Shown: piece by piece, positions 154 to 22,915 of the stretch
How positions within the stretch are numbered: the stretch's first letter is position 1
Layout of the letters: each line of letters begins with the position of its first letter
Assembly: GCA_027604685.1 (NCBI GenBank)
Contig: JADHYX010000218.1
Coordinates: 9,539-32,453 of the forward strand
Length of the DNA: 22,915 nucleotides
From: Lobulomyces angularis
Lineage: Eukaryota; Chytridiomycota; Chytridiomycetes; Lobulomycetales; Lobulomycetaceae
Direction of reading: 5' to 3'
The notes under the pieces: model-generated
The model's database searches: none
Told to the model about the DNA's origin: nothing
The model's input: only the letters and a program-made list of their open reading frames with translations
Program-made: the position numbers and the translations under genes

Positions 154-1367
154 TTAGTACAATACAAAAGAAAGTAGTAGGATAAATAAAATTGAGGAAA
201 AACTATATCCATTGGCAGAATTCAAAGCAGGTGAATCATCAACAGAAGTGTCGTTAGAGTTGGTTTTAGGCGAAGAAGGTGTTGGGGGAGTATATGGGCC
301 ATCACCGTGGTAGAGCTCCATTTTGTAAATTGTAACTTGATTTACTGCTGTTGCTGGGATCGTTTCTGAAGGTAAGTTCTGACTGTAACTTCCTGCTTTA
401 AAATACACTCCCAGTAAGTTGGTTTTATAGCCCTCTTTAGGAGTTTTGAGTTCTCCATTTAAATAAACATAAACCTAACAAAAACAATTCAACTTTTTTA
501 TTGAATTTTTTCTTACCAATCCATTATCAACAACAACTTCTAGATCAAATTTGGTTCCCATAACGTAATTTTCTATCAGAGGATATTTATCTGCACCAAT
601 AATCTTTGTCAGACTTCCATTTTCAAATTTATCAAAATCGGCAAATAGCAACACTCCAGTTTCTGGTTTAGAAAAGAGTCTAACCGTCATTACCGCACAA
701 CATTCACTGTGGATCTGAAAATTTATCAGCTGCAAACAATAAAAAAAAAAAAAAATTAAAAAAAAAACTTCATATTTTTTTTTCTACCTTTCCTTCAGTT
801 GAAGAACTAATTTTATCTATGCTTTGAGTAACTTTCATGAAGTGGACACCAGTTACTGTATCCCAATTTGCATTGTACTTCGGGTTAGTTGCATTCATTT
901 CTCGTAATTCAGTTCTTGTAAAGTCTGAGTTTGCTTTAATATCAAAAATAAAAAATATTAAGAATTGAAAATTAATTTTTTATTTCAAATAAAAAAAAAG
1001 TAAAAAAAATAGTATTTCTTGCTTTTCTTTTTTTACCTGAAGAAACACCATTAAGTGGTAAAACTGGGGTATGAAAAACGAATCCATCACCTAATTTATT
1101 TAAAAAAAAAAAGTCATTCGTATAACCAGGTTGAGTGAGGATTGGATGTTTAACAGTTTCAAATTTGGACCCTATCCCAATTGGTAGTTGCAGTGTCCAG
1201 TTTTGCAAAGAAAAAGGTTGACTCGTTGGATTCTCTGACTTCGGATGGTTTTCCGTTGGAATCGGTGCTTTTTCCTGTATAGTTTTACTTTGTGTTGAAA
1301 AGAGTAGGAAGGCTATTGAAATCAACATAAAATTAGAATCCAGCTTAAAAATGCTTCTTAGTGTCAT
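154..1367 (-). CDS. Secreted, probably GPI-anchored polysaccharide lyase (alginate lyase 2 fold, PL7/PL20-like)
   Basis: Four exons, read on the minus strand: 1367-1037, 933-788, 729-517 and 474-154. They give 336 residues in one frame. Three motifs of the PL7/PL20 beta-jelly-roll lyases appear in the right order: RTELREM at 117-123, QIHS at 164-167 and YFKAGSYSQ at 254-262. In the family the R/E-rich strand, the Q-x-H histidine and the tyrosine of Y-x-K-A-G form the substrate and catalytic cleft that cleaves uronate polymers such as alginate or glucuronan by beta-elimination. The N-terminus has a hydrophobic signal peptide; Met1 or Met14 could be the start, and Met14 would make it more compact. 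After a Pro/Ser/Thr-rich linker (about 282-318) the protein ends in a hydrophobic tail preceded by small residues, as in GPI-anchor signals, so I infer a surface-tethered enzyme. Substrate (alginate or glucuronan) cannot be decided from sequence alone. Confidence 0.85.
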
Positions 1368-1636
1368 ATTTCTATATTTTTAGTTTTTTTTCATTGTTTC
1401 TGATGTCTTTTATATAGTATAATTTTCTTTTTTTGGACTTCATTTATTTTTTTTTTTTTTTAAAACACAAAAACAAAAAAAATTTAAGTTCAGAAAATTT
1501 TATTTTTTTTTAAGGTACATTACAAAAAAAAAAATAAAATTAAAATAACGTTAAAAACAAATTAGAGAGTTTGAAAAAAAAAAATTATTAAACTAAAAAA
1601 AATTTATTTTTTTTTTGCTTCAATCAAATTTTTTTT
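1368..1636. other. Intergenic region between the lyase start and the PKC stop
   Basis: These roughly 270 bases are mostly A/T homopolymers. They should contain the lyase promoter and the PKC 3' UTR, since both genes are on the minus strand. The only structure I see is the inverted repeat at 1564-1647. Confidence 0.5.
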
Positions 1637-1647: not shown

Positions 1648-5615
<3,968 letters not shown>

Positions 5616-6727: not shown

Positions 6728-8114
6728 ATGGATTCTATTGGAACAGGTACTTTTTTAAACTAGATCATGTGTAAAAACAATTTGTTTTTTTTTCCCAATT
6801 TAAAATTAAATATAAACTAAATCAAAAAAATATTTGCAATTAAGGTATTGTTGGTGCAGGACTCTCTGCGAAAATCTTTCATGCTCCATTTATACAAAAT
6901 AATAAAAATTTTACTCTCTTGAAATTTTTAAGGTAATAAAAAAAAAAAAAAAGCCAGTATTAATTTTTTTTTAATTTTTTTTTTTTTGTAAAACTTTAAA
7001 AACAATAAAAAAACGAAGTTAATTTTAAAAATTTCATTTTTTTTTTTTTCCATTTTAGATCTGGATCGAATAATTCAGTAGAGGGATATGAAACAATACC
7101 AGTAACAACGAACAGAAAAGAATTTTTAGAAACTAAAAATTTAGATCTCGTCATAATTACATCACCCTCTTCCACACACTTTGAAATTTGCGATTATTTT
7201 TTGAAAAATAATAAAAATGTAGTGATTGAGAAGCCTTTTACAATTAGTTTTAAAGAAAGTCAAGTTTTAATTGATACAGCAAAAAAGTTTAACCTCATTT
7301 TGGCTGTTTATCATAACAGAATTTTTGATGGCGACTTTATTACCTTGGAAAATTTGATTCAACGGAAAATATTAGGTACAAAAAAAGAACATAAATTTTT
7401 AAAAACTTTTTTTTCCTTGACAATAAATTTTTAGGAAATATTGTTGAATTGGAATCTAACTTGGAGAGATTTAGAAATATTCCTAAAGTTAACAGTTGGA
7501 GAGAATCTGACGAACCTGGAAGTGGAATACTCTATGATATGTAAAAAAATTTTGTTATAGACTTTAATATTTATATATTTTTATTTTAGAGGATCTCATT
7601 TAATTCATCAATGCATTTATCTTTTTGGAAAGCCTAAATCAGTCTTTTCAATCTTAAGTAATCAACGAAAATTTGAAAACGTTAATTCAATCGACTATTT
7701 TAAAATTGTTTTAAAATTCAAAAATGAAGAAAATTTGATTGTAACATTAAAATCTTCAATGCTGGCAAAAATTCCTGGTCCCAGATTTACGCTACATGGA
7801 GAAAAAGGTAGCTTTACTTTTTCTGGAATAGATCCACAGGAACCACAATTGAGAAATAAAATTTGTAAAGTAGGAGATGAAAATTTTGGAGTTTTTAGTG
7901 ATTATGGACATTTAAAATATGAAGTTGATGGTAAAGATATTGAAGATGTAAACTTTAAAATTACCAATGGAAACTATGGACTCTTTTATTCCAATGTATA
8001 TGATGCTATTATATCAAAAAATCAATCTCTTTTGAAAGTTAAAGTTGAAGATGCTGCTCTCGTTATTAAAGTAAGAAAAAAAAAAAAAAAAAAATGAAGA
8101 ACTCAGAAAAAAAA

Positions 8115-8432: not shown

Positions 8433-9598
8433 TTACAAAAATTCTCTTTTTTTTGCAGTTCTATGGTAAGGTCTAAATACCCATTCTGTATCAGCTTCAG
8501 CAATATCTACAGTGCCGAGTTTGATTTCATATGCTTTAAAAAAAAATGACAAATAAAATTATGAAATAAACAAAAAATAAAATTATGAGAATAAAAAACT
8601 TTTTTTTGAATTAAAAAAAATTTAAAAAAATTTACCTTGCATTTCAAACCTTGGACCAACTTCCATTAAATCTATTTGTTTTCCCTGTTTATTAAAAACA
8701 TGGTGTCTAAAACTAATAAAGTCATTTTCATTACTAAAGGTTAACGTTCTTTTAGAGTCTTCTTTCGGGACTGGAAATAGGTATTTTAAAATATTTTGTA
8801 ATCTTAAGCCTAGTTTAGATTGAAAATTGTTGAATATTAAATGTGGAAATTGCTCAGAGACTGTTCCCTTGTCCGGAATATCATGACGTAAAACTACATT
8901 ATGTAAAGTAAAGTAAGCTGTTGGACCATATGGAAAATGGCAAACAACCATTCCATCTGGTTTAAAAAAATAAAATTTAGATTTTTTTTAAAAAAAGTGT
9001 TGCTAACCAGGTTGTCCTCTATGTTCATGTAAAATAATTAAATCCGTTACATCATTTTGCTTACAGGCCTCCACGATTTCTTTTGTTACATATCCACCTC
9101 TATTAATTCTCTGAGAATTAGGAAAAATTAATCTCATCTCTTTTGAAAAAATTTGTAGTCTTGAAGAAGGATCTCTTGAAGTTGTTATTAAAATTTTTGG
9201 ATCTTTCACTCCCGCATTAGCATATTCATCATCAATATGTGTTGAGTGGTCTAATTTTTTTATTTATTCATTTAATTGGTATGCAACAATAATACCTGTA
9301 ATGTGCTCATCTACATGTAACTGTTTTCGTATCTCTTCTGCCTCTTTTCTTAATTCACCAGGTATCTGAGTTCCAGCTAAAAAAAATAAAAATAAAAAAA
9401 AGTACTGTAATTAAATAAAATTAAAATTTTTTACTTTAATTTTAAAGTTTTTCTTTTCTATGTATTTTTAAAAAATAAAAGTATACCTTTAATTGCATTT
9501 TTTATAGTTTGTTTTCTTTCTAAAATTAACTTTTCCTTTGATTCATTCGATTTTCTGAATAAATAATCTCTTCGTAAACGTGCATTTCGTCGTTGCAT
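8433..9598 (-). CDS. IMP4: IMP4, Brix-domain U3 snoRNP protein
   Basis: Five exons on the minus strand: 9598-9487, 9376-9296, 9250-9008, 8956-8636 and 8533-8433. They encode 285 residues, against about 290 in yeast. The start fits the family: MQRRNARLRRDYLFRKS resembles the basic IMP4 N-terminus. The Brix domain begins at about residue 81 with KILITTSRDPSSR. It continues through N-R-G-G-Y-V, DLIILHEHRGQP, HFPYGPTAYFTLHNVVLRHD, PHLIFNNF and EVGPRFEMQ, and ends with the typical KLGT...DTEWVFRPYHRTAKK tail. Imp4 works in the nucleolus with Imp3 and Mpp10 in the SSU processome. There it helps U3 snoRNA base-pair with pre-rRNA for early 18S cleavages. All four introns are phase 1. The motif wording separates it from the Brix paralogues Rpf1, Rpf2, Ssf1 and Brx1. 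Confidence 0.96.
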
Positions 9599-14400: not shown

Positions 14401-17325
14401 CTCCCGAAAATTGTAAGTAATTTCCCAGCTTGTGGAGCACCGTAGGTTTCATAAACTGCATGAACCAAACCATGCGCAGAAGCACCAAATTGAGCCTTAT
14501 CTAATATACCAGTTAACAATTGCCCATCAACTACTAAAACAGTTTGCTCCTCTTCCGCTATCTTTCCCCAGGCTTTAGCAGGAATCTTTGATTTTGATCT
14601 CAAATTCAATCCATGACTTTTTGCTGATAAGTTTAGCAAAACAGTTGAGATCTAAAAAGTATAAATTAGAAGAATTAAGAACCCTAAAATTCGGCATACC
14701 AATTGCTTTCCAGTCCATAATTGCTTTGGTTTAATAACAGCAGGCGGTAATGTTAAAATTTTCCCACAATCTCCTAAAATCACTTCCTCTTCAATATTTC
14801 CATTGCTGCCACTAACACCTCCAACAGCTTTAAAGCCTTCCGGTCTTAAACTAATATAAATAAGTTGAAAATACTCCTCTCTAGTAAAAGTTGAATCTTT
14901 TTTTGTCATTTCTACTCCAGCACATACGTGATCCTGAATAAGGCCTCTTAACACTCCACCATCTGTTGGAACTAAATATTGCTGATCCGTTCTTGCTATT
15001 AACATTGCTTCAGCTCTAGCAATACTATTTTGTGGAAAATGCATATTCATTTCATCCCCGTCAAAATCTGCGTTGTAGGTATTACTATACCATAATATTT
15101 AGTAATAAATTTCATTTAGTTAAAACATACCAATTCGCATAGTGCATTCTAATAGTCCTTTCACCTGGTAAAATTCTAGCGGTGTGACACATAATTGAAG
15201 GCTTATGTAAAGTCGGTTGTCTATTTAAAAGTAGGAAATCCCCATTTTTAATATGTCTAAAAACTTTTTTGTTTACAGAGGGAAGGGTTCCTAAAAAAAT
15301 TTTTTAGTAATATAATTTTAAATATAAAAAAAACCATCTGCATCAGTTCCTGCTGCAATTGTTGGCGTGAGTAATTGATTAGCAATTGCAGTTCTGCCGG
15401 CTTCATCAAACATCGCCAGTTTTAAAATCGACCCATCTTCGTTTTGAACCTGGGTTGCACCAGGCCAAACATCAGGTCCTCTAATAACTGCTTCCCTAAG
15501 CTCGTCTATATTGTGAGTTGTAACAGGTTCGGGGTATGTAAGTTTTAGAGCAAACGGAGGGGGAATCTGAAAATTCAAATATAAAAATCTGAAAACTAAT
15601 TGGATTTTTTTTTACCCCAATTTCATTTGTTTCAATGTTAAAATCAGGTGAAATAACACTTCTCGCGGCATAATTGACTCTTTTTCCCATCATATGTTTA
15701 CGAAATAATCCTTCTTTTTTTTCTAATAATTGTCGTATTCCAGGTGCTGGGATTTTTCCTCCAACACTTGGAGCTGCGGTACTATCGATAAAATTATTTA
15801 CATTTGATTGAAGTATTACTAAAGCGTTTACCATTTTTTGAGAACTATCAATGGATCTATTTTCATTTATATCCATAATAATTAAATTTGCTTTTAAAAC
15901 ATCAGCAAGATAACCATTTTGTGGAGATTCAAAAATTTGCCCTAACATTATTAAATATAAATTTAAAATTTTTAAAATTTCAATTTTACCATTCATTTTA
16001 GAAGTGGGTCTAAATTTATTTGGTGGAACAGGTAAATATTTTATAAAAAACATTGAGTGGTTAGAGGTTCTAATGTTATTAGAAGAGAGAGATCCATAAA
16101 GAAGGTGCAATATATTTTCTTCTTTTTTCCATAAACGTTCCATATGCTCGTAAACTTCAATAGCAGAAAGATATCTAGTTGTTTCTTCCTCGTTTGTTTT
16201 CGATTTTGACGGTTCCCTCTCATCCGTTGAATCGTCATCGGAGTTTTCTTCGTTTTTAATTTTCAGCTCTATAATTAAAAAAATGCATTAAAAAAAATTT
16301 TTTCTCCAAAATATTAAAACTTACTGTTTATAGGTGAAATTGAAGAATGACATGTCAATGGGTATAATGTCATTCCTTTACTAACCATAGCCTTTTTCTG
16401 TTTAGCTCCCAGTGGTTTTTGAAAAATTTTAATCATTCCTTCGGACCGAAACTTTGGACTTTGGCCTTTACAGTTTGCACAAGATTGAGTAGGTATAGAC
16501 GACAAAAAAAGTTTTTCAACTTCTCTAATTGTATCAGTAGCTAAAATAGTTCTATTTTTGCTATAAGCGTTGTTAGCTGAAAGTTTTTCTTTTTTATCAA
16601 AACATTCAGTAACAAAGTCTTCAATTTTTTTAATAAAATCTCCTTCTGACATTGGTTGAGAATCAAGTTCTTCCTCACCAACCGCCTCCGCTGGCTCGTC
16701 AATATCCATTTCGTCATCACTCTCTTCTATAGTTTCATCAACAATGACTTTATCGTTATTATCTGATCTGCTTTTTTTCTCAGTTTTCTTTTTTTTTGAT
16801 TTTTGCTTCCACTTGTAACTTATAACATCGTCTAGTTCAGTTGCCTCCAAAATTAACCCTGCATGAATCAGCCTTAATTTAGCTCCTATATGATAAACTT
16901 GAGTTCTTGAAGTACGAAAATGGTGGCAGTATAAACAAATAGAGGATAATAATTTCCTTAATAATTTGAAAGTTATCGGATTGTAACATATTGACGACAA
17001 CTCGATATGTCCAAAATGACCTGGACATTGAAAGTAGGAAAGAGAACAAGTAGCACAACTACAATAAAACTGTTATATCAAAACTTACTTTTTATTTTTA
17101 CCTAGAATCTTTATCAACAGGTCCCAAAGCAGGATCATTTAAGCCACCAGGATTAGGATGATTTAAATTGTTATTTGTAATTGGATTATATATTTGCTTT
17201 ACTGAAAGTTTTAAAATTTCCTCTGGGGAATAAAAGGAAAAAGAAGTTGCTTTTATTTCTCGAGAAATTGGATGAGAGATATCCTACATAAAAACTTAAT
17301 ATGTCAACTGTTTTAAATATACCAT
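11487..17325 (-). CDS. RPA1: RNA polymerase I largest subunit
   Basis: Thirteen coding exons on the minus strand: 17325-17323, 17283-17102, 17058-16325, 16268-15616, 15566-15335, 15290-15131, 15084-14700, 14651-14285, 14223-12829, 12777-12236, 12183-11915, 11858-11768 and 11708-11487. They encode about 1744 residues, versus 1664 in yeast. The first zinc site is C63-x2-C66...C73-P-G-H76. The second is split between C103/C106 and C255/C258. The catalytic magnesium loop NADFDGD is at 659-665, the bridge helix around 1035-1075 and the trigger loop around 1255-1280 ([12 protein letters not shown]). The C-terminus [14 protein letters not shown]...[10 protein letters not shown] is Pol I-type. The enzyme transcribes 35S pre-rRNA in the nucleolus. 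Acidic/lysine-rich inserts lie in the clamp (about 143-195) and jaw (about 1417-1510); the jaw insert sits where the Pol I-specific expander (DNA-mimicking) loop is found. The start codon appears to be alone in its coding exon, and three introns use GTTTT donors. Confidence 0.95.
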
Positions 17326-17917: not shown

Positions 17918-19680
17918 ATGTTAGATCTTGATGAAGGCTACAAGAAAGTTGGTATTTTTTGGTACTCATTGGCAGGATTATGTTCATTTAGCGGTTCAAT
18001 AATTTCACTCTTTACGATGTCACAACACTTAAAAAATTACAGGAGACCAGAATTGCAGCGCAATACCATTAGAATATTGTGGATGGTAACGGAAATATTT
18101 CAACACCTAAATTTTTTAATGAAATTATTGTAGTTTAACAACTCTTAAATTTTTTAATCTAGGTTCCAGTATATGCCCTCGCGTCGTTTATATCCCTAAG
18201 TTCTAAATATTATTCAGATTACATTGATACCATTAGAGACATTTATGAAGCTTTCGTTATTTATACCTTTTTTATTCTGTTAATCAACTATTTGGGTGGA
18301 GAAAGGCAATTATTGATTACACTGGAAAATTCGATGAGAGTTCATCAATTATGGCCCTTTAATTATATATATGGGCCAATGGATGTAAGTGATATTTATT
18401 TTCCTTATTGTGCTTTTGTTTACTTTTGTGTACTAAACCAGTCCTCACATTCTCCTACTTTTTGACTTTCTATTGCAAAAATTAATTTTTAATTTCTTGT
18501 TATAGATGTCTAATCCAGTAACGTTTCTGAATATTAGAAGAGGAATATTTCAGTTTGTTATTTTAAAACCTATTTTAGGAATTCTGATAATGCTGTTAAA
18601 AGTTAATAATGCTTACCATGAAGGATATATTGCCCTAGAAAGCTCTTACTTTTGGATAAATTTATTTTACAACATATCAGTTTGCACCGCTATGTACTGT
18701 TTAGTAATGTTTTACTTGCAATCTAAAAATGAACTGAAATCTTTTCGGTATTTGATTTTTTTTGCACTTATTTTTCATATAATTTTAATCTTTATCAGAC
18801 CTTTGCCCAAATTCCTTTGTGTTAAAGCTATCATTTTTTTTTCTTTCTGGCAGGGGTTCTTTATTGCGATATTAGTGGCAACAGGAATTATTACTCCAAG
18901 TATCTTGAAAATATAGTTATATTGTTTTGATTTTTTTTACAAATAGATGGAGATTATAGTGCCAGCAAAGTTGCTGTTGCACTGCAGGATTTATTAATAT
19001 GCTTCGAAATGGTCCCTTTTGCAATTGCCCATTGGAGTGCCTTCACGTGGAAAGATTTTGATTCGTCTCGGCTTTCTGCTAGAATGAGAATCAATTTTGC
19101 GTTCAGAGATTCTTTAGGAATTAAAGATGTTGTGCAAGATTTTAAGCACATTTTAATGGGAACAAGTTTTAAAAATGTTTATACAAACTACGAGACGCAT
19201 CAGGAAAGAGAGGGTGAAGATGGTGATGAAAATTTTGTATTCTCTAGTGAAAGAAGATTTTATCGTAGTATTAATAGAAAATCTGGATACGGTAGTATTC
19301 GAAATTTAGTAGACGATTACGCTGCTGGTGTAGAATTTAGTGATTTGATTGAAGATGTAGAATTAGAAAATCAATACGAAAAAGCCCGAACCTTTATATA
19401 TGGTAATTTAGTTTAAACTAGCAGTGTTTTTTATTGGCTTTTTTGTAGGGGATTCAAATTATCCTGTTATTCATGAAAGCTTCCGAGAGCCACCAGCTGT
19501 TCAAGCTAGAATCGATCAAATGGTATGTAGAAATTAAAATTTGATTTTTTAATGCGTGATTTTATTTATTTACTTTTAAATTAGGCTTCCGAAATTATAG
19601 ATAATTTTGCTAGAAAAAGTTACCACAGTAAGGACAAAAATATTTTTAATCATAGTAGTGGCTCTTCGAATATAGTTTAA
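17918..19680 (+). CDS. TMEM184 / OST-alpha family seven-helix membrane protein
   Basis: Seven exons: 17918-18085, 18163-18384, 18506-18747, 18799-18899, 18947-19402, 19449-19522 and 19585-19680. They encode 452 residues. Family signatures are the Y-R-R-P-E-L-Q-R-N-T-I-R segment before helix 2, W-M-V-P-V-Y-A spanning intron 1, Y-L-G-G-E-R at the end of helix 3, LPKFLCVKAIIFFSFWQG in helix 6, and ALQDLLICFEM in helix 7. About seven hydrophobic helices fall near residues 11-33, 53-75, 90-110, 145-165, 180-205, 217-245 and 255-280. A soluble, charged C-terminal tail of about 160 residues follows. The family (Pfam Solute_trans_a) includes the bile-acid transporter subunit OST-alpha and yeast/plant vacuolar or endosomal members; the substrate here is unknown. 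The intron at 18748-18798 is 51 bases with no stop, so reading through it would add 17 hydrophobic residues. Confidence 0.9.
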
Positions 19681-20202: not shown

Positions 20203-21506
20203 ATGGATATTGCGATAAATGACCTACCTGAATTTATCCCCTTTACTGTGGATACTGAATATCAAAATGCCTACTTTCAAACCATCCTTCACATAGTGGG
20301 ATTCATCGGTATTTCCACATTTATTTTTTAACTATTTTATTAATAATAATTAGCAAACCTATTATTGTCAATTTCAATTCTATCATTAAAAGAGATCAGT
20401 TCATATAGATTTAATTTGATAATATTTTGCATAAGTGTAAAACCATTTTAATTCTTTTAAAAATATTCATTATAGTTTTTTTTTTTTTTTATCTTAAACA
20501 AAATAGGATTATTTGTGCTCGCTATTTCGTAAAATTTAAAAAATATTTTGATGAAACTAAAATTAAGGTTTCAATAATTATTAGTAATAGCTTTTTCGAT
20601 CAGTACTTTAATGTATGGTGGTGTTTCTGTAAGCAAGATGCAATGTGCTTTTATATCTGGACAAACAATATTTTTTTGTTTTGTGTCTCTGTGTAGTTGT
20701 TTAGGATTAACATTTGAGAGATATAATCTGGTAGTACTGAAAAAAAATATTACAAAAAAGTACTTTTCAATTTACTTAATAATTATCGTCACCATTGGTT
20801 TATTGTTAGCTTTTTTTCCTGTCATGGTAAGATTATATTGCAAGAATGCTAAAAAAGTTTTTAAATAGACTAACAGTTATGGAGAGGTCTATGGATTAAG
20901 GAGCTCATATGATATTTGCCTTGTGCTATGGTATAAGCGGGGAACTCCAGTAGCAGCAACCTTTGTCACAGCTTGCTTGATGACCATATTTGTCCCTACG
21001 GCTTTCATGTTTTTTGCATATTACAGGTTCGTTAAAACTAATATATTTATAAAAAAAATCAAAAACTTTAGGATTTATCAAAATGTAAAAATGTCAGGAA
21101 AAATGCTGAATGATTGCTTTAAAACACAATCAGAATCAAAATGCCTGGAAAAAGGAAGTAGTGCAGATGATTTATCTGAGAAACCCAACAGCAGAAATCA
21201 AGTACATTCAGTTCAAACTGTGTTGGAAAAAAAGGTTTTAATGCAAAGTATATCTATATGTTTTTGCTTTCTCATGGGTGTAATAAATTAAATTATCCTT
21301 TTTATTTTTTTAACTTTTGCATTTAGTGGACCCCAGTGATGATGATAATCGCATACGAAGTAGTGTTGGGAAAACCAGCACCAGTTTGGTTAATGCATTT
21401 GCACACCGCTGGCCCATCCTTTTCTTGTCTTTGTAATCCAATTTTGGTTTACTTTTTTGACATCCAGATGAGAAACACTTTAAAATGTTTTGTATTTTGG
21501 AAGTGA
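20203..21506 (+). CDS. Class A (rhodopsin-like) G-protein-coupled receptor, tandem copy 1
   Basis: Seven exons: 20203-20308, 20354-20436, 20507-20528, 20585-20826, 20869-21026, 21072-21279 and 21327-21506. They encode 332 residues with seven hydrophobic helices and a short extracellular N-terminus without a signal peptide. Landmarks in class A numbering: N37 (1.50), D64 (2.50), C91 (3.25), E115-R116-Y117 (3.49-3.51), C168 in loop 2, P194 (5.50) and Y202 (5.58), F270 (6.44), W274-T-P276 (6.48-6.50), N310-P311 (7.49-7.50). The D2.50-C3.25 gap (27) and C3.25-R3.50 gap (25) match class A exactly. Helix 7 reads NPILVY rather than NPxxY. Position 7.43, the retinal lysine of opsins, is serine, so it is not a canonical opsin. 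Intracellular loop 3 is about 60 residues and polar. Ligand and G protein are unknown. An alternative last exon could splice 21491 to 21711, replacing the last 4 residues with 36. Confidence 0.88.
20507..20528 (+). other. 22-nt microexon carrying D2.50 of the GPCR
   Basis: This exon encodes D-Y-L-C-S-L-F and the first base of a Leu codon, the start of helix 2. It lies between a 70-base and a 56-base intron. Reading on past 20528 reaches a stop within a few codons, so it must be spliced. The paralogue has an exon of the same length at 22610-22631. Confidence 0.8.
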
Positions 21507-22320
21507 GGATTTACTTATATATCATTTCATTTTTTATGATAAGTACCACATTTCTTAATTTTGAAATAAAACATCTGTTAAAAGTATAACTGTTGTTAAA
21601 ATTTTCCTAATAAAAAATTATTTGTTTACTTCATGAAGTACAAAGAAGTATAATGCAAAAATTGTTTGTTAAGAAATTGGAATGACTTTGTTTTTTTTTT
21701 TATTTTATAGAATACTAAAAATGACAATATGAAACTGACAATGTTTATGAGTAGGCTGCCAACTTCATGGACTATTACAATTTTGAAGTTATATTTTTTT
21801 TTTGCTCTACCTCAAATTTAAGGTAAAAGTAATTTTTTTAAATGAATTTGAAGTAAGAGATCAAAATTGCATAAACTGGCTTATGTTATTTTCCTTAAAA
21901 GAAATCATTCAGGCTACCTGGTATCATATAAATACTGTATATTGTTAGATTTTAAATACATTTTGCAACGAAAAAAAATTAAACTGAACTTAACAAAAAC
22001 TACCTCTATACTTCATCATTTATTACAGAATATTTCACATTGAGTTATTATATCTTAAATTAAAATCTAATTAAATTACTAATTTTCTGGCAAACACATT
22101 TTTTTTAAACTGAATAGGTGTTAAAATTAATAATGTAAATTGACTTTATAATAAAATTTTGTTTTGTTCTAAATTAAAATAGACATTCATCATCAAACAA
22201 TAATAATAAAATGTGAGTACACATGACGAAAGAAATTAAACCTTAAGCGTAATTTGTGTGGATAAATTTTTAAATTTTTGTAGGATTGATTGGCTAGAAG
22301 AATCAATTATAAATTAATAA
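21507..22320. other. Intergenic region between the two GPCR genes
   Basis: About 810 AT-rich bases. A candidate polyadenylation signal lies at 21565-21570. A polypyrimidine tract and acceptor (to 21710) precede a 36-codon open frame ending at 21821, which could be an alternative 3' exon of copy 1. From about 21830 to 22320 I see no gene; it should include the copy 2 promoter. Confidence 0.45.
21565..21570 (+). terminator. Candidate polyadenylation signal, GPCR copy 1
   Basis: AATAAA sits about 60 bases after the copy 1 stop. If used, it supports termination at 21506 and argues against the alternative last exon at 21711-21821. Confidence 0.35.
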
Positions 22321-22915
22321 ATGGATATTTCAATAAACGAATTGCCAGAATTTGTGCCATTTACTGATATTACCCAATACCAAAATGCCTACACTCAAAC
22401 TATACTTCACATTATAGGATTTATAGGTAATTTTGCAAGAATACCTTGTTTTTAATTTTTTTTATAATTAGGTAATTTGTTTCTGACAGCCTCAATTTTA
22501 TCCTTAACCGAGATAAGTTCTTATAGGCTCAGTTTGCTTGTATACAGTATAAGTGTAAGAAAGAAACAATTATTGAATTCCATTAACTTTTTCTTATATT
22601 AATATAAAGGACACTTTGTGCTCTTTAATTCGTATAATTTTTCAACCCATATTTTTTGGACTAATAAACCTAAAAATCTACAATTAGTGATTGTTTTTTC
22701 AATAAGTACTATAATTTATAATGGTGTTGGCATAAGTAAGGTGAATTGCGCTTTTATATCTGCACAAACTATATTTTTTTGCTTTGTGTCCCTTTGCAGT
22801 TGTTTAGGATTAACTTTTGAGAGATACAATTTGGTGGTATTAAAAAAAGACTTCACCAAAAACTCTTTTGCAGCTTATTTAGCTGCAGTGATAGTTATTG
22901 GATTAAGTTTAGCAC
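22321..22915 (+). CDS. Class A (rhodopsin-like) GPCR, tandem copy 2, cut by the window edge
   Basis: Exons visible: 22321-22426, 22472-22554, 22610-22631 and 22688 to the edge. They cover the N-terminus to helix 4 (about 146 residues). The first three exons have the same lengths as copy 1 (106, 83 and 22 bases), and introns 1 and 3 also match in length (45 and 56 bases). Of the first 36 residues, 28 are identical between the copies by my count. N1.50 in G-N-L-F-L, D2.50 in S-D-T-L-C, C3.25 in V-N-C-A-F and E-R-Y after helix 3 are all present with class A spacing. Helix 3 from C-A-F-I-S to E-R-Y is nearly unchanged, while loops and the end of helix 4 differ. It is a recent tandem duplicate under protein-level constraint. 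The 3' half lies outside the window. Confidence 0.85.

Follow-up and report, generated by a model that had tools for sequence, protein, structure and literature searches.

Tandem candidate class A G-protein-coupled receptor genes in the zoosporic fungus Lobulomyces angularis

Twelve Rhodopsin-family proteins, that is, class A G-protein-coupled receptors (GPCRs), were described by Krishnan et al. in 2012 from the zoosporic fungi Allomyces (3), Batrachochytrium (1) and Spizellomyces (8), with ERY and NPXXX motifs (PMC3251606). A 2025 census reports 984 fungal Rhodopsin-class proteins over 1357 species, concentrated in Entomophthoromycotina (PMC12842992). A type II opsin-like gene occurs in a range of zoosporic fungi, sanchytrids and Neocallimastigales excepted (a 2022 paper, PMC9616733), gut fungi have one or two rhodopsin/Dicty-CAR-like receptors each (PMC5168858), and four 7tm_1 orthogroups are among 107 specific to flagellated fungi (a 2026 paper, PMC13358043). 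Here we describe two adjacent genes, copy 1 and copy 2, in a 22,915-nucleotide stretch (the window) of the chytrid Lobulomyces angularis (GenBank assembly GCA_027604685.1, contig JADHYX010000218.1). They are very probably paralogous class A (Rhodopsin-family, fungal ‘Class 15’) GPCRs of a Lobulomycetales chytrid, the products of an old local duplication, both kept and both predicted to act in ligand-switched G-protein signalling.

The pair belong to a kind of receptor already known from zoosporic fungi, to which they add detail. By description, the receptors of the 2012 study share with them the helix-2 aspartate, the extracellular-loop cysteines, a D/ERY motif, a helix-7 NP without a fixed tyrosine, and zoosporic hosts; the present genes differ in coming from another chytrid order, in forming a tandem pair, and in that three of the six family genes in this genome carry DRY (PMC3251606). 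Class 15 of the census is defined by 7tm_1 together with seven helices in the expected topology, and the present genes have the Pfam part; neither ‘Lobulomyc’ nor ‘Clydaea’ occurs in the main text of the census, supplements being outside this scope (PMC12842992). The Spizellomyces punctatus type II opsin-like GPCR is likewise a chytrid class A protein with ERY and an altered NPxxY, there NPVLF (PMC5410147). In the literature searched by title and start of abstract, exclusive of subscription papers, preprints and supplements, we found no paper on Lobulomycetales receptors. An earlier note on this DNA held Rhodopsin-family receptors to be rare in fungi and mostly known from zoosporic lineages; this needs correction, since such receptors are documented in fungi, with 12 in three zoosporic species (PMC3251606) and 984 in the census, which describes them as concentrated in Entomophthoromycotina (PMC12842992).

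The window forms the right end of its contig (C218, 9539-32453 of 32453 bases) in an assembly of 20.76 Mb and 533 contigs. Copy 1 (R1, 20203-21506) is a complete gene of seven exons with six GT-AG introns of 42-70 nt, and splicing gives an open 332-residue protein, the length first stated for it. A 347-residue version, which keeps the 45-nt intron in the third intracellular loop (ICL3) as coding sequence, was ruled out by comparison with the paralogues; it was the version used in the solved-structure and named-homologue searches, the 332-residue one being used in the final Pfam scan. Copy 2 (R2) starts at 22321, and its first four exons encode 146 residues before the contig ends. All three introns shared by the copies agree in codon position and phase, the exons that precede them measuring 106, 83 and 22 nt in both. 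In a third gene, R3, all five observed introns (1, 2, 3, 5 and 6) have the same phases as in copy 1, and a contig break falls exactly at the expected intron 4. Because intron places and phases agree among the copies and R3, the exon model is supported beyond motif-fitting. The join at the 22-nt micro-exon is also made, as in the copy 1 model, in a public protein filed under Clydaea vesicula (P0002).

The proposed search against Pfam 7tm_1 placed copy 1 above the cut-off, at 53.6 bits (cut-off 30.5; E 2.9e-14), and found no other family at E<=0.1; the copy 2 fragment alone scored 26.4 bits, under the cut-off. Copy 1 has N1.50, D2.50, C3.25, S3.39, E3.49-R3.50-Y3.51, C45.50, P5.50, Y5.58, F6.44, W6.48, P6.50, N7.49 and P7.50, where Ballesteros-Weinstein numbers are our own assignment on an alignment of the six family members. 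Every class A microswitch listed in the earlier note is therefore present in copy 1, and its central claim, a tandem pair of class A genes in a zoosporic fungus, is borne out by the copy 1 score and these residues. The window DNA of copy 2 carries the landmarks through ERY, reaching into helix 4 only; its later ones were read from public proteins. In copy 1, D64 and C91 lie 27 residues apart, and C91 and R116 lie 25 apart. The D2.50-C3.25 and C3.25-R3.50 spacings of bovine rhodopsin are equal to these, in line with the note's claim of equality with animal class A receptors.

Genome searches used the Pfam 7tm_1 profile and then three queries, the public protein P0001 and the receptors on contigs C307 and C149; more divergent members could escape them. 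The profile found four places (C307, C23, C177 and C149), missing the window pair because genes were searched exon by exon, and the three queries added only C218 and C31. The resulting seven places were counted as six genes: R1, R2, R3, C307, C177 and C149. R1 and the completed R2 are 69% identical, R3 is 48-49% identical to both, C307 and C177 are 44% identical, and C149 is 20-30% identical to the remaining five. R3 is split, with exons 1-4 in C23 and the last three in C31, and on each side the break falls at a poly-A run of intron 4. Since the C. vesicula record holds both halves in one protein, a misjoin in the assembly is more probable than a true break; a second public protein (P0004, L. 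angularis) fuses the R3 3' half to another membrane-protein-like sequence, the result expected of a misjoin. The suggestion that the family might extend past the window edge holds for the genome, with its six genes, but the contig ends at that edge, so any longer local array would lie out of view.

Pfam 7tm_1 matches all six genes at E<=0.1, completed copy 2 included (best E 2.1e-34); the only other family at this threshold is ActD, in one gene (E 0.071), and an NCBIfam scan of the six gave no match. Two of the six alignment rows are composite, copy 2 being completed from public proteins and R3 joined from two contigs. Invariant columns are N37, L57, S63, G83, C91, S105, R116, Y117, V121, C168, W172, P194, Y202, L255, I264, F270, W274, P276, I281, N310, P311, F317 and D318, and 13 landmarks are constant throughout (N1.50, C3.25, S3.39, R3.50, Y3.51, C45.50, P5.50, Y5.58, F6.44, W6.48, P6.50, N7.49 and P7.50). 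Five genes have D2.50, C149 having G there, and position 3.49 is acidic in every one, E in R1-R3 (ERY) and D in the other three (DRY). Loop charges fit an external N-terminus. Compared with solved structures, the six-member profile retrieves class A receptors, including the 5-HT5A receptor (7um5, 1.3e-15), squid rhodopsin (2z73, 5.4e-14) and the alpha-2A receptor (7ej0, 5.5e-14), all among the best 60 of 515 matches, and C307 alone retrieves bombesin receptor 3 (3.2e-15, among the best 60 of 318). The cited entries are those not named as fusions; many matches were to BRIL-fused receptors in which the fusion part aligned with copy 1 ICL3. No single animal subfamily is prominent among the solved-receptor matches listed.

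The duplication is visible in the DNA itself. Direct repeats of 117, 95 and 199 nt link copy 1 and copy 2 at 76, 71 and 79% identity with spacings of 2118, 2118 and 2103 nt, and as they were found without a gene model, the duplication is independent of exon modelling. Identity is 66-75% over the four exons that the copies have in common and 43-56% over the three introns. Over 146 codons the copies are 71% identical, with nonsynonymous (dN) and synonymous (dS) divergences of 0.19 and 1.54 and a rough dN/dS of 0.12, by which both copies look constrained; dN/dS is 0.23 for copy 2 against R3, and copy 1 against R3 is saturated at silent sites. The view that the copies are diverging thus stands for their sequence, but not as decay: they look old and under purifying selection.

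All named homologues, at 43-100% identity, are filed under two chytrids, L. angularis and C. vesicula, both of which we take to be Lobulomycetales. Word-based protein searches returned no relatives outside this order, and a database search with the six-member alignment, in which the 8000 candidates with the most words in common with it were scored, returned three proteins, none of them new. Copy 1 itself has no annotated protein among those found, its best match being 58% identical. P0001 (L. angularis HDU92_002856) has 126 of the 146 copy 2 residues in identical blocks and looks like copy 2 itself with another exon choice, the introns near helix 2 being read through and a piece of helix 4 dropped. 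Blocks identical to copy 2 exon 4 are 66 residues long in P0001 and 75 in P0003, and both proteins continue past the contig end, P0003 as far as the beginning of helix 6 and P0001 through a complete C-terminus; a genome search with P0001 did not find the missing remainder of copy 2 elsewhere in the assembly. P0002 (C. vesicula HK099_002171) corresponds to the R3 paralogue, with 324 of 358 residues identical in blocks 1-141 and 155-337 of R3. These blocks span R3 introns 1, 2, 3, 5 and 6; P0002 differs at intron 4, where 13 helix-4 residues are dropped, and its end is fused to a following gene. Other identical blocks amount to 53 residues of R3 in P0004 and 289 of 332 of C307 in P0005 (both L. 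angularis), and to 257 of 332 of C307 in P0006 and 202 of 332 of C177 in P0007 (both C. vesicula). Gaps between the blocks fall at exon choices or fusions.

Proteins filed under both names thus share identical blocks of 53 to 324 residues with this one genome, and the L. angularis and C. vesicula records may represent a single species, or one of the two may carry the wrong name. The C307 receptor gene (2179-3269) has a clear 7tm_1 match, and its public counterparts P0005 and P0006 are named ‘DEAD-box ATP-dependent RNA helicase 3, chloroplastic’; both of these models continue into foreign sequence and lack one or more helices at the end of the receptor.

A number of observations weigh against assigning the pair to functional class A receptors. 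Residue 7.53, the NPxxY tyrosine, is V, V, I, I, I and I across the six genes, a tyrosine in none. The motif of the published fungal proteins is given as NPXXX, so the missing tyrosine marks the fungal branch and not exclusion from class A. Hydropathy, a simple measure (threshold 1.2), gives seven segments in four of the genes and six in copies 1 and 2, whose rather polar helix 7 falls under the threshold and counts against a fully canonical class A protein. Copy 1 alone, in its 347-residue version, matches solved receptors at only 5.2e-4, partly via a fusion part. The assembly contains only part of copy 2, the dN/dS is rough because a dS of 1.54 over 146 codons is near saturation, and the protein searches, which were word-based, matched Lobulomycetales only. 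The genome yields only two RGS matches, both above cut-off, and one Arrestin_C match, under cut-off.

Some of these points would suit one or both copies being non-functional, as pseudogenes or decoy receptors: the contig end truncates copy 2, Y7.53 is absent, and copy 1 has no annotated protein among those found (best 58% identical). This is nevertheless very unlikely, as copy 1 is open over seven exons with a dN/dS of 0.12, two public models jointly carry copy 2 to the full C-terminus, each dropping a piece, and position 7.53 is not fixed as tyrosine in the published fungal members (NPXXX, PMC3251606). An origin from animal DNA contaminating the assembly would fit the far greater number of class A receptors in animals, and its probability is practically negligible: the named homologues are all filed under chytrids at 43-100% identity, copy 1 alone matches solved animal receptors at E 5e-4 or worse, and the same contig carries ordinary eukaryotic genes. 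That case is strong, though not final, because one of the two chytrid records may depend on the other.

Within the receptor superfamily, the genes could instead be opsin-like light receptors, type II rhodopsins on the S. punctatus model. They belong to the same class A family, squid rhodopsin is among the profile matches listed, and a type II opsin-like GPCR has been reported across a range of zoosporic fungi (PMC9616733). Against this, position 7.43 reads S, S, A, Q, E and S, so that the retinal lysine is present in none of the six genes; the Spizellomyces protein has that lysine, ‘unlike those in other chytrids’, whose opsin-like versions lack it (PMC5410147). We consider a light receptor highly improbable. 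An aminergic receptor was also set aside, position 3.32 being T, T, T, S, T and I, with aspartate in none; D3.32 is the amine-binding residue of aminergic GPCRs. Without K7.43 and D3.32, a light or an amine receptor is unlikely. The cAMP-receptor (Dicty_CAR) family deserves mention, as Pfam models separate it from class A poorly near their split, yet helix 3 distinguishes them, by D/ERY as opposed to NxY (PMC3251606). ERY or DRY is found in all six genes, and Dicty_CAR is not listed in their Pfam scan at E<=0.1. A genome search for Dicty_CAR was also empty, a weak negative since the control genomes gave no match either. Membership in that family has very little probability, and the class A assignment is preferred.

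Partners for class A signalling are encoded in the genome; the family counts, those for RGS and Arrestin_C included, are lower bounds, with matches counted exon by exon. The proposed check for G-alpha subunits found 64 matches at E<=0.001, and one of 14 control genomes matched, below cut-off. Grouped by position, by hand, they form 23 substantial clusters and five short or contig-edge ones. A regular-expression search for G-alpha motifs in 20 stretches, covering 27 of the 28 groups (C250 left out), gave 19 P-loops and the same number of switch II motifs, the two occurring together at 15 places; a figure of about 23 G-alpha-like loci is an estimate, because exon breaks can hide motifs and gene models are absent. 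Such loci lie on C17, C176, C199, C305 and others, several in tandem. The G-alpha set looks strongly expanded, its approximately 23 loci far exceeding the six class A receptors. The cyclase domain has 11 matches (the same family matched in five of 14 controls) and PI-PLC-X has eight. Class C 7tm_3 has 25 matches, 18 above cut-off, at about 20 places, and so outnumbers class A, which agrees with what has been reported from chytrids and gut fungi.

By analogy with the established class A mechanism, an extracellular small molecule or peptide would bind in the helical bundle of each receptor. Binding would move the W6.48/F6.44/P5.50 switch and open the E3.49-R3.50 lock, and a G-alpha subunit would dock at R3.50/Y5.58 and act on a cyclase or phospholipase C. 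As 7.53 is V or I, the Y5.58-Y7.53 active-state contact cannot form, and helix 7 would be held another way. The lifestyle of the fungus by itself suggests zoospore chemosensing as a possible role. The Entomophthoromycotina have no flagella. Their count in the census speaks against a strictly flagellar role (PMC12842992), and the 7tm_1 orthogroups specific to flagellated fungi favour a zoospore role (PMC13358043). It is also conceivable, if doubtful, that the tandem receptors are hubs read by many G-alphas, working without the NPxxY tyrosine; the six class A genes, together with about 20 class C loci, would face about 23 G-alpha-like loci, several of them in tandem, in a reversed ratio and alongside few RGS and arrestin-like matches. 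Such a receptor/G-alpha layout would be atypical of animals or other fungi.

The receptor exons and the neighbouring genes, the latter from a scan of 10 window open reading frames (ORFs), are collected in the table. A fungal-type PKC, proposed earlier, is represented by a PKC-like gene with C1 and kinase pieces above cut-off; HR1 was found only below it, and the ORF expected to hold C2 was unmatched. The ORF at 972-1379 (-) matches Alginate_lyase2 weakly, at 20.6 bits against a cut-off of 29.7, and is possibly part of a secreted polysaccharide lyase; further ORFs at 154-783 (-) adjoin it. The window gave no tRNA or Rfam matches at gathering score.

Table. Exons of the two receptor genes and neighbouring genes in the window (ECL2, second extracellular loop; ICL1, first intracellular loop)
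Feature	Position	Strand	Content	Basis
Copy 1 exon 1	20203..20308	+	N-terminus, helix 1 start	Gene model; DNA repeat with 22316-22432
Copy 1 exon 2	20354..20436	+	N1.50, ICL1, helix 2 start	83-nt exon, phases same in copy 2 and R3
Copy 1 exon 3	20507..20528	+	22-nt micro-exon, first codon D2.50	Counterpart 22-nt exon in copy 2 and R3
Copy 1 exon 4	20585..20826	+	Remainder of helix 2, C3.25, S3.39, ERY, helix 4	Gene model and alignment
Copy 1 exon 5	20869..21026	+	C45.50 of ECL2, P5.50, Y5.58	Gene model and alignment
Copy 1 exon 6	21072..21279	+	ICL3, F6.44; preceded by 45-nt intron	Gene model and alignment
Copy 1 exon 7	21327..21506	+	W6.48, P6.50, N7.49-P7.50, tail, TGA stop	Gene model and alignment
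Copy 2 exon 1	22321..22426	+		Gene model
Copy 2 exon 2	22472..22554	+		Gene model
Copy 2 exon 3	22610..22631	+	22-nt micro-exon, D2.50	Gene model
Copy 2 exon 4	22688..22915	+	C3.25, ERY, helix 4 start; cut at contig end	Gene model
Neighbour	2179-5283	-	PKC-like pieces	ORF scan
Neighbour	7009-7434	+	Gfo/Idh/MocA oxidoreductase	ORF scan
Neighbour	8622-8987	-	Brix domain	ORF scan
Neighbour	14652-15098	-	RNA polymerase Rpb1 domains	ORF scan
Neighbour	18163-19416	+	Ost-alpha-type membrane protein	ORF scan

Class A is the largest receptor family of animals, and its presence in zoosporic fungi bears on what the shared ancestor of animals and fungi was able to sense. With only six receptors, intact copies among them, this chytrid is tractable for a search for a fungal class A ligand, and the set lets one ask how activation works without the NPxxY tyrosine.

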